The notes under the pieces are model-generated. The model worked only from the letters and a program-made list of their open reading frames with translations, did not search any database and had not been told where the DNA came from. Source: Prevotella sp. (GTDB lineage: Bacteria > Bacteroidota > Bacteroidia > Bacteroidales > Bacteroidaceae). Taken from it: a stretch of DNA of 47,010 bases. Shown here in pieces: positions 21,025 to 41,074 of this stretch. Made by a program: the position numbers and the translations under genes. Each line of letters opens with the position of its first letter. The stretch's first letter is position 1. The stretch lies in contig JAFWQT010000125.1 of the NCBI GenBank assembly GCA_017508965.1, forward strand, positions 1 through 47,010, given 5' to 3'.

Positions 21025-21160
21025 GTAAACACGACATAAAGGTTAGTAAACTTAACAATAATTAAATACTAAAGAATAGCCTTTAAGAGTTATTCACTCA
21101 ATCCAATGACTTTTCCTCCAACATATGAGAAAAACAAAAAAGTGATTATTTATACGCCGT

Positions 21161-21196
21161 TTTGCTTGCATATCACAATATTTTTCGTATCTTTGC
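21161..21196 (+). promoter_or_regulatory. corA promoter
   Basis: TATCTTTGC at 21188-21196 is a perfect -7 box. TTTG (21161-21164) or TTG (21166-21168) upstream gives spacings of 23 or 19 nt. The transcript should start near 21200, leaving a leader of about 135 nt before corA. Confidence 0.7.
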
Positions 21197-21225
21197 ACCC
21201 GTATTAACCAATTTTGTAACAAATA

Positions 21226-21261
21226 ATGGACGACTACCCGGCGGATAATTACAATTCGTAA
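21226..21261 (+). CDS. Candidate leader peptide of corA (MDDYPADNYNS)
   Basis: An 11-codon ORF inside the corA leader, about 26 nt after the predicted transcription start. Its start has the A/T-rich context used by Bacteroidetes genes. Four of the first seven residues are Asp or Pro (D2, D3, P5, D7). Acidic and proline codons early in a nascent chain are known to destabilise ribosomes at low magnesium in enteric leader peptides such as MgtL, and Salmonella corA also has a leader ORF (corL). The stop codon (21259-21261) directly abuts the hairpin at 21262. Translation is not proven, and short ORFs also occur by chance in other leaders here. Confidence 0.45.
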   Translation: MDDYPADNYNS

Positions 21262-21335
21262 GGCAGGGGGATAGCGAGCAAGGCTGCTAATCCCTTTGCC
21301 GCTAAAACCATTTCTCAAACGAAAAAGGATTAGCA
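21262..21335 (+). promoter_or_regulatory. Structured corA leader with two mutually exclusive hairpins
   Basis: Hairpin A: GGCAGGGGGAT (21262-21272) pairs with ATCCCTTTGCC (21290-21300), 11 bp with two G-U pairs, topped by two 3-bp AGC/GCT stems. Hairpin B: TGCTAATCC (21285-21293) pairs perfectly with GGATTAGCA (21327-21335), which ends 2 nt before the corA ATG. A and B share 21285-21293, so they cannot coexist. A ribosome at the upstream stop codon would melt A and allow B, hiding the corA start; a ribosome that falls off early would leave A intact and corA open. The pairings are seen; the mechanism is inferred. Confidence 0.5.
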
Positions 21336-21337
21336 AA

Positions 21338-22264
21338 ATGAAGACATACTGGAATACCATCAACGGACTAAAGCAGATTCCCCAGTGGGAACCTGGCTGC
21401 TGGATACAAGTGACGTGTCCAACGGAAGAAGACCAGCAAGAACTGGAAGAGCGTTTCGAAATACCCGACTATTTCTTTTCGGATATCAGCGATACCGATG
21501 AGCGGGCCCGCTATGAATACGACGACGGATGGACGCTCATCATCCTCCGCATACCATACGTGAAAGAGGTACGCTCGCGTACCCCTTATACCACCGTGCC
21601 ACTCGGAATCATCCACAAGCGCGACGTGACCATCACCGTCTGCTTCTACGAGACGAACATGATGATCGACTTCGTTTCGTTCCAGCAGAAGCGAGGCGAG
21701 GGATTCACCGACCATGTGGACATGATTTTCCGCCTGTTCCTCTCGTCGGCCGTGTGGTATCTGAAACGGTTGAAGCAAATCAACTTCCTCATCGAGAAAG
21801 CCAAACGGAACCTAGACCACGGCGTGAACAACGAGAGTCTGATAGGACTGTCCAGGCTGCAAGACTCGCTCACTTACTTCACCACTTCCATCCGCGGCAA
21901 CGAGATCCTGCTGCAGAAACTGAAGTTCAAGCTGCAGGTGGACGAACTCGACGCCGACCTCATCGAAGATGTCAACATCGAGATGACGCAGGCCAGTGAA
22001 ATCACCAGTATCTACTCGAATATTCTGGAATCGACGATGGACACCTACTCGAGCATCATCAACAACAACGTGAACACCGTGATGCGTACGCTCACGGCCG
22101 TCACCATCATACTCACCGTGCCCATGCTCGTGGCCTCGTTCTTCGGCATGAACCTCATCAACGGCATGGAGAACAGCGCATGGGGATTTGCCGTGGCACT
22201 CATCATCTCTGCCGTCATAGCAGGATGCTCGTGGGCTGTGCTGCGCCACAAGAGACTCGTCTGA
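21338..22264 (+). CDS. corA: CorA-family magnesium/cobalt transporter
   Basis: 308 residues from ATG 21338 (MKTYWNTING). The frame extends upstream to 21296, but the added codons overlap the leader hairpin and are not CorA-like. A long alpha/beta N-terminal cytoplasmic domain is followed by two C-terminal membrane helices at about 250-270 and 278-300, with the signature G270-M271-N272 (SFFGMNLI) after the first. The protein forms a pentameric Mg2+ channel in the inner membrane, gated by cytoplasmic Mg2+. The leader at 21226-21335 suggests post-transcriptional control. The regulator gene at 22296 follows after 31 nt. Confidence 0.93.
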   Translation: MKTYWNTINGLKQIPQWEPGCWIQVTCPTEEDQQELEERFEIPDYFFSDISDTDERARYEYDDGWTLIILRIPYVKEVRSRTPYTTVPLGIIHKRDVTITVCFYETNMMIDFVSFQQKRGEGFTDHVDMIFRLFLSSAVWYLKRLKQINFLIEKAKRNLDHGVNNESLIGLSRLQDSLTYFTTSIRGNEILLQKLKFKLQVDELDADLIEDVNIEMTQASEITSIYSNILESTMDTYSSIINNNVNTVMRTLTAVTIILTVPMLVASFFGMNLINGMENSAWGFAVALIISAVIAGCSWAVLRHKRLV

Positions 22265-41003: not shown

Positions 41004-41074
41004 TTGGGGTACCCGGACTCGAACCAGGAAAGGCAGGACCAGAATCTGCAGTGTTACCATTACACCATACCCCA
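41004..41074 (-). tRNA. tRNA-Gln (anticodon CTG)
   Basis: 71 nt folding as a full cloverleaf: acceptor TGGGGTA/TACCCCA, D stem GTGT/ACAC, anticodon stem GCAGA/CCTGC (one A-C at the base of the loop) around loop TTCTGGT, and T arm CCTGG-TTCGAGT-CCGGG. The CCA end is not encoded. CTG decodes CAG glutamine codons. Confidence 0.93.

Follow-up and report, generated by a model that had tools for sequence, protein, structure and literature searches.

The corA gene of a Prevotella genome is preceded by a regulatory leader which is real, widely conserved and beyond the reach of chance. It consists of a short upstream open reading frame (uORF) that begins with acidic codons, a hairpin (“hairpin A”) which follows the uORF stop codon, and a competing helix (“helix B”) which joins part of that hairpin to the region of the corA start. 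Since the same layout is found before two unrelated families of Mg2+ transporter, the leader is probably a magnesium switch that is read by the ribosome, and we consider it likely that it attenuates the translation of Mg2+ uptake genes under the control of the uORF. The evidence supports the Asp-rich uORF, the coupling of its stop to hairpin A, helix B as the competitor of that hairpin at the corA start, and the link with Mg2+ transporters; within this reading we infer the Mg2+ trigger, the pausing or drop-off of the ribosome, and the sign of the response.

The corA leader in the Prevotella window

The window is the whole stretch of Prevotella DNA that was analysed, 47,010 nucleotides in length, and the features of its corA locus are collected in Table 1. 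The original prediction placed a uORF encoding MDDYPADNYNS at 21226, an 11-bp hairpin touching the stop codon of this uORF (21262-21300), and a perfect complementarity of 9 bp between 21285-21293 and 21327-21335, just before the corA ATG. All three elements are present: the uORF ends in TAA (21259-21261), hairpin A forms 11 pairs between 21262-21272 and 21290-21300 with a gap of 0 nt to the stop, and the 9 perfect pairs of helix B end 2 nt 5' of the corA ATG (21338). The two structures can never both be complete, because they share 21290-21293 and the remainder of the helix B 5' strand lies on the loop side of hairpin A.

Table 1. Features of the corA locus, in window coordinates
Feature	Position	Strand	Evidence
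Presumed Bacteroidetes-type promoter: TTTG 21161-21164, TATCTTTG 21188-21195	21161..21195	+	Sequence; consensus
Leader uORF MDDYPADNYNS, stop TAA (ATG 21226, stop 21259-21261)	21226..21261	+	Sequence and conservation
Hairpin A 5' arm (segment 2), GGCAGGGGGAT, 0 nt after uORF stop	21262..21272	+	Fold, arm swapping
Inner hairpin A' (possible), in which GCAAGG 21278-21283 pairs to CCTTTGC, alternative segment 3 partner in close relatives	21278..21299	+	
Helix B 5' strand, TGCTAATCC, overlaps segment 3	21285..21293	+	Duplexes, MAFFT covariation, arm swapping
Hairpin A 3' arm (segment 3), ATCCCTTTGCC	21290..21300	+	Fold, arm swapping
Hairpin D, weak, in the spacer (GCTAA pairing to TTAGC)	21302..21335	+	Minimum-energy fold
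Helix B 3' strand (segment 4), GGATTAGCA, corA start region	21327..21335	+	Duplexes, MAFFT covariation, arm swapping
corA, CorA-family Mg2+ transporter, 308 aa	21338..22264	+	Pfam PF01544, E 3.1e-45

The TTTG and TATCTTTG elements upstream of the leader are presumably a promoter of the Bacteroidetes type, and a TAnnTTTG-like motif can be recognized by eye 5' of the uORF in many relatives. Placed from this promoter-like site, the corA transcription start would lie at about 21200-21203, which would give a leader of about 137 nt, and since the site is upstream of the uORF, the uORF should be within the transcript. The site likewise argues against a start 3' of 21261.

The region 21188-21345 folds with z = -2.86 relative to dinucleotide shuffles (0/200 as good), and a 3' arm that matches the real one in its pairing to both sides is produced by none of 100 shuffles of the window leader. 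The GCTAA partner of hairpin D appears by eye to be missing in many relatives. A search for intrinsic terminators (a hairpin followed by a T run) between 21100 and 21400 yields no site on the plus strand and one on the minus strand. The window leader has no match at the gathering score among the 4227 families of Rfam 15, the sole match in the window being a tRNA gene elsewhere (41004-41074, minus strand); a gathering-score scan of 20 related loci gives no match, and a scan of 21150-21400 at E values up to 5 gives one sub-cut-off match, on the minus strand.

Distribution of the uORF across genomes and transporter families

The set of close relatives comprises 80 related corA loci, mostly from Prevotella and Prevotellaceae, which together with the window make 81 leaders; 80 of these have at least 100 nt of upstream sequence, and the remaining one (L056, 24 nt upstream) is excluded from leader counts. 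An MDDY uORF precedes corA in 79 of the 80. The sole close relative that lacks it, L077, has different upstream DNA. If the extra codon carried by L008 is ignored, all 79 have GAC as codon 2; codon 3 is GAT in 66 and GAC in 13, codon 4 is TAC in 49 and TAT in 30, codon 5 is CCG in 54, CAC in 23, and CAT and TAC in one each, and codon 6 is GCG in 77. The use of GAC at codon 2 may reflect the avoidance of GATGA, that is, of a second, out-of-frame ATG. The expectation that both Asp and Pro codons would be important is thus borne out for Asp, while Pro is dispensable, since at position 5 the Pro that 54 of the 79 have is replaced by His in 24 and by Tyr in one.

The uORF is 11 codons long in 67/79 close relatives and ends in TAA (44), TAG (28) or TGA (7), and the hairpin stays behind the stop. 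Among leaders with a hairpin at or below -9 kcal/mol, the gap between stop and hairpin A has a median of 3 nt in 66 close relatives and 4 nt in 30 other leaders, over uORFs of variable length. Given the usual footprint, a ribosome at the stop would cover approximately the first 5-10 nt of the 5' arm.

Beyond these relatives, a search with ATGGAYGAYTAYCMNGCGGA, allowing at most one mismatch, finds a match in 22/393 Bacteroidales genomes, at one place each. By inspection, 15 of these places, the window among them, are leaders of corA, and at 12 of the 15 this corA is just 36-46% identical. Two others precede different genes related to Mg2+ (L096 and L103), and five are apparent stretches of longer genes. 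A search with corA itself finds a match in 36/157 Bacteroidales genomes, for all of which the upstream DNA was covered (33 fetched and three already in the set). A uORF starting with MDD, MDE or, once, MDG precedes corA in 29 of the 36, with the usual layout in 27 and a position more than 200 nt upstream in two (L122 and L129), and is absent before the other seven. The variants include MDDYHSEY, MDDYHPDS, MDDSNPRPY, MDDGPYHSK, MDEGPYHSR and MDEVPDYRQ. Across the phylum, corA is matched in 44/257 genomes, and the upstream regions of 20 of these 44 were examined, another two being already in the set. In family f124, which belongs to the same class and another order, the uORF is present in 5/5 leaders examined (four MDDYY and one MDDSQRKYY; 11 genomes of this family have a corA match), and there is no uORF in 15/15 corA upstream regions from families f136, f131, f125, f122 and f147. 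The pattern ATGGA[C/T]G[A/G] is absent from 22 of 67 further corA upstream regions, 15 of the 67 having been chosen by means of the uORF pattern. The element is therefore not universal before corA. Pattern matches at L158 and L159 were rejected as lying inside a longer frame which adjoins an unrelated gene, and duplicate entries for the same place were merged (L109 with L093, and L094 with L105).

What is retained over these distances is the acidic start. Asp occupies position 2 in all 45 other leaders, and Asp or Glu occupies position 3 in 44 of them, much of which is fixed by the search pattern; as a contrast set, ATGGAYGA occurs in 0/20 CNNM and 0/20 MgtE upstream regions. The change from D to E at position 3 preserves the charge. 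After the acidic pair the residues vary (Y, G, S or V at position 4; H, P, Y or N at position 5), and the length ranges from 8 to 27 codons, so that the N-terminus is conserved and the C-terminal residues are variable.

The leader is also found before MgtE (PF01769), which belongs to a family unrelated to CorA and is present in 30/60 Bacteroidales genomes. The layout occurs in 2/20 MgtE upstream regions, whose uORFs are MEEDPYRSYSREKETMC and MKDDPYSCCLINH; in both, a hairpin and a TGTAAGGA anti-arm come next (the second by eye). Homologues of the MgtE that bears MKDDPYSCCLINH were found in 24/294 genomes, and examination of the upstream DNA of all 24 gives a uORF before 12, for example MKDDPYSCGLIKH, MDEGPYSSKN, MDDVPDSCC and MDDGPYHSWREQKY, and none before the other 12. 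An out-of-frame MDEGEYR at L288 was regarded as a chance match.

Two genomes that belong to one genus (L096, region 1501-2356, and L161, region 730-1540) have a uORF that overlaps the start of ksgA out of frame in a ksgA-corA operon. The uORF is MDDYHAENATS at L096, a locus checked with Pfam, and MDDYHPDNANRS at L161, a locus identified by its likeness to L096. In several genomes (L236, L243, L247 and L248) MgtE lies directly behind ksgA, which encodes a 16S rRNA dimethyltransferase, and the ksgA-Mg2+ channel operon is a recurring arrangement. For ksgA-mgtE, ksgA was recognized in 10 of 20 further-upstream regions, with no ATGGAYGA uORF near its start; a match at L256, where no ksgA was seen, was taken as chance, as were two ORFs upstream of the ksgA motif at L258, one of 5 codons at a distance of 278 nt and one without an ATG (MDDLARGVC) at 187 nt. 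At L103 (1501-1628) a 41-codon uORF beginning MDDYHAE ends 1 nt before a CNNM/CorC-type gene, and in that genome corA itself (L126) lacks a uORF of this kind. CNNM was rejected as a regular member, since none of the 20 CNNM upstream regions has an ATGGAYGA uORF and L103 is a single case.

The occurrence of the same uORF before CorA, MgtE, ksgA-corA and CNNM indicates that the peptide tracks Mg2+ transport genes and not one gene family. A tentative extension of this observation, which we regard as a serious possibility short of an even chance, is that Bacteroidota possess one ancient ribosomal Mg2+ sensor based on acidic codons, which would have been re-wired onto unrelated transporters: through the hairpin coupled to the uORF stop for CorA and MgtE (on at low Mg2+), through overlap of the uORF with ksgA in the ksgA-corA operons, and with the opposite sign at CNNM. 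Under this extension, a uORF that ends 1 nt before the CNNM gene would reverse the sign through coupling, which would fit an exporter.

Selection on the two competing helices

The uORF and the helices are both conserved among close relatives, as the original prediction held that they should be; loops and spacers appear by eye to be unconserved. Across the 79 close relatives, the hairpin region was paired with the 25 nt that immediately precede corA; these duplexes average -16.1 kcal/mol for a leader's own two regions, compared with -14.1 kcal/mol when the regions are swapped and -8.7 kcal/mol when they are shuffled, and in L059, a quite divergent sequence, the same duplex still reaches -21.5 kcal/mol.

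Compensatory change was evaluated on 53 of the 79 leaders, all distinct and of suitable length, which were aligned with MAFFT. Helix B has 87.3% standard pairs in these 53 sequences, 7/10 of its pairs have changed on both sides, and its covariation score is 0.169 versus 0.105 for shuffled alignments, a level which is reached by 0/500; when the partner is slid by 1 to 3 columns, pairing falls to 21-43%. The outer helix A has no covariation excess on this alignment, and a version slid by one column scores higher, which we attribute to a poorly aligned 5' arm. For the inner hairpin A', 67.8% of cells are paired versus 59.4% when shuffled and the covariation is 0.287 versus 0.205 (0/500 each); the excess is present on three of five measures, and the pairs changed on both sides are no more numerous than in shuffled data.

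The strongest test for selection on both helices is an alignment-free one, in which arms are swapped between leaders (2000 permutations). It was applied to 38 leaders from Bacteroidales, of which two belong to the genus of the window, and to 71 close relatives, those with more than 100 nt between stop and ATG having been left out of the 79. In the 38 Bacteroidales leaders, the arms of hairpin A pair at -11.56 kcal/mol with their own partners and at -6.45 kcal/mol with swapped ones, and helix B gives -11.91 versus -7.68 kcal/mol (0/2000 for each), while a control pair, the 5' arm with the start region, is null (-5.66 versus -5.52 kcal/mol). In the close relatives the values are -16.55 versus -13.96 kcal/mol for A and -15.23 versus -13.18 kcal/mol for B, again with 0/2000 permutations each, and the control pair is again null (-3.77 own, -4.15 swapped). 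Compensatory changes are thus found for helix B on the alignment and for both helices by arm swapping, though not for the outer helix A on the MAFFT alignment.

A score for the sharing of one arm by both helices has p <=0.05 in 49/75 close-relative, 26/38 Bacteroidales and 4/5 f124 corA leaders, and fails at that level in 26/75, 12/38 and 1/5; leaders with more than 130 nt between stop and ATG were left out (79 to 75, and 40 to 38). All 12 MgtE leaders pass at p <=0.05. Arm swapping among the MgtE leaders is significant for A (0/2000) and marginal for B (74/2000), because these leaders resemble one another.

These results also bear on the view that the leader is an ordinary uORF with hairpins kept by descent and without a regulatory role, a view which can be dismissed as extremely improbable, since both helices covary while the control pair is null, and the same layout recurs before MgtE.

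Mechanism, alternatives and known systems

In the proposed mechanism, segment 3 would have a choice of two partners, segment 2 just after the uORF stop and segment 4 at the transporter start. A ribosome at the uORF stop would cover the foot of hairpin A and so free segment 3, and the transporter start would be closed (off). If the ribosome instead paused on the early acidic codons (Asp2-Asp3 or Asp-Glu, in many cases with His or Pro next) or dropped off there, it would never meet hairpin A, so that the 2:3 pairing would hold and segment 4 would be open (on). Adjacent early acidic residues stall or dissociate E. coli ribosomes, an effect that is counteracted by EttA and L31, as reported in PMC11282234, and MgtL and MgtQ are described as exploiting such acidic-codon pausing or drop-off (PMC11282234, PMC8092293, PMC11552253). 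Because early acidic codons destabilize ribosomes at low Mg2+ in MgtL and MgtQ, low Mg2+ should switch the importer on.

That the position of the ribosome decides between A and B was part of the original prediction, and equilibrium folding with a ribosome on the early codons or at the stop agrees with it in direction, if not everywhere in extent. The modelling covered 74 close relatives (one further leader, without a shared arm, was dropped), 38 other Bacteroidales and five f124 leaders. A clean switch, with A above B for a ribosome on the early codons and B above A for one at the stop, is predicted for 57/74 close relatives, and for just 11/38 other Bacteroidales and 1/5 f124 leaders; a reversed switch is predicted for 0/117. 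From early codons to stop, the modelled pair probability in close relatives goes from 0.68 to 0.03 for A and from 0.14 to 0.49 for B, and in other Bacteroidales from 0.33 to 0.03 and from 0.51 to 0.83, so that the low count of clean switches in the latter is due to B being favoured already. In the window, B has a modelled probability of 0.007 even with the ribosome at the stop, because the model prefers the inner hairpin A' and other pairings; the A state is favoured and B lies about 16 kcal/mol above it. The two states are within 4 kcal/mol of each other in 30/74 close relatives, 16/38 other Bacteroidales and 4/5 f124 leaders. Modelled accessibility of the start region changes weakly: a drop of more than 0.2 is found in 11/79, 10/38 and 2/5 leaders, compared with 15/395, 9/190 and 0/25 controls (L122 and L129 left out).

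Among the alternatives, the one that survives best is a sub-variant with four segments of the MgtQ type, in which untranslated RNA would form 1:2 and 3:4 and be off, and only a ribosome on the early codons would turn the gene on. The two models coincide as long as the uORF is being translated; it is for untranslated RNA that their predictions diverge. MgtQ itself works in this way according to PMC8092293, and of the six leaders for which naked minimum-energy folds were printed, L006 and L014 form a 1:2-like pairing with 3:4 as naked RNA and change to 2:3 once a ribosome occupies the early codons; in some leaders CACGC/GCGTG replaces CCGGC/GCYGG. Against this, the naked window, L030 and L100 leaders fold into hairpin A. 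Pairing between the uORF codons and the arm behind the stop in 78 close relatives (L008 left out) is stronger for own (-8.9) than for swapped (-8.1) or shuffled (-7.0) partners, but the gain is lost when the swapping is done within the P or the H type, and may therefore reflect shared descent. Pairing of the uORF codons with the region of the hairpin A 3' arm has no excess (-8.84 versus -8.73). We regard the sub-variant as somewhat unlikely, with odds that overlap those of the main model.

An arrest of the nascent peptide at or near the uORF stop, in response to an effector other than Mg2+, could set hairpin A open or shut, and the conservation of the peptide start across wide distances would fit; it is nevertheless improbable, since the C-terminal residues and the length vary while the N-terminus is conserved, and arrest peptides are not known to combine a conserved N-terminus with a variable C-terminus and length. 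A direct metal or ligand riboswitch with an incidental uORF, to which the two exclusive structures might belong, is quite improbable: neither the window leader nor the 20 related loci have a gathering-score match in Rfam, the loops and spacers appear unconserved by eye, the reading frame is maintained, and the acidic class survives changes from D to E.

An observation which points to some constraint on codons or nucleotides, as a riboswitch might impose, is that in codons 4-7 of the close relatives (window 21235-21246) every codon with a middle C is NCG (GCG, CCG or TCG; 133/133), while in the corA genes of these relatives GCG makes up just 8% of Ala codons and CCG 13% of Pro codons. In the other 45 leaders the proportion is 34/49, versus 11/137 in the first 20 corA codons. 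This constraint is outside the reach of the main model; slow decoding or an RNA contact are possible causes. An account based on rare tRNAs was rejected, since the relative G327 has tRNA-Pro CGG and tRNA-Ser CGA but, for Ala, only tRNA-Ala UGC within the set of its tRNA genes that was examined, from which no simple rule emerges.

The abundance of D, Y, H and N codons in many leaders, codons which are read by queuosine tRNAs, would suit an attenuator that senses an amino acid or the modification state of tRNA through them. Such an attenuator is very improbable, given that the residues after the acidic pair change freely, which argues that no single amino acid is read, and that the downstream genes are mostly Mg2+ transporters.

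If the preferred reading, a uORF-controlled attenuator of Mg2+ uptake, is correct, it would be the first leader-peptide control by Mg2+ in Bacteroidota as far as the literature searched goes, and Mg2+ sensing by ribosome instability on early acidic codons would be far wider than the enteric bacteria. The search of the open PMC literature, made mostly at the level of listings, found no description of the present element, and the strings MDDYPA and MDDYHA do not occur in it. Short ORFs or leader peptides have been suggested for attenuation in 5' UTRs of Bacteroides thetaiotaomicron and Flavobacterium psychrophilum (PMC7366714, PMC9723704), in the latter before amino-acid operons (PMC9723704); the word corA is absent from the main texts of both papers. 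Ribosomes of Bacteroidia are reported not to recognize Shine-Dalgarno sequences (PMC9976891), yet a GGAGG or AAGGAG sequence is retained at the starts of leaders from other families (for example L100, L114 and L125), where it is one strand of helix B, and a role in helix B would explain why such sequence is kept before many genes though unused for initiation. The 136 natural variants (124 corA and 12 MgtE leaders) make it possible to test uORF translation against direct RNA binding as the Mg2+ sensor.

The leader shares several features with a known class of element, the uORF-controlled leaders of Mg2+ transporters such as MgtL, CorL and MgtQ: a Mg2+ transporter downstream (PF01544 or PF01769), a uORF with an acidic start, and two exclusive conserved helices. 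In MgtL-mgtA, early acidic and proline codons form a Mg2+-dependent destabilizer, which acts on Rho termination of mgtA and has an EPDP motif in place of the MDDYH or MDEGP found here (PMC11552253, PMC11282234). CorL-corA of Salmonella and E. coli shares a uORF in a corA leader and two exclusive structures, and CorL translation is inversely tied to corA; its own features, as described in PMC11552253, are a uORF inside a three-way junction, Rho-dependent termination and fewer acidic or proline residues. The MgtQ-mgtB element of Salmonella is described as a short uORF with early acidic residues which exerts translational control over a Mg2+ transporter, with a segment 3 that takes part either in an on-helix (2:3) or in an off-helix (3:4), the latter covering the start of the transporter gene; it differs in lying between operon genes, in its clear 1:2 helix, and in peptide, transporter family and phylum (PMC8092293), whereas the present element lies at the 5' end of genes for CorA and MgtE and has hairpin A coupled to the uORF stop. 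The leader is best read as functionally akin to MgtQ and CorL, a kinship of function and not necessarily of descent.
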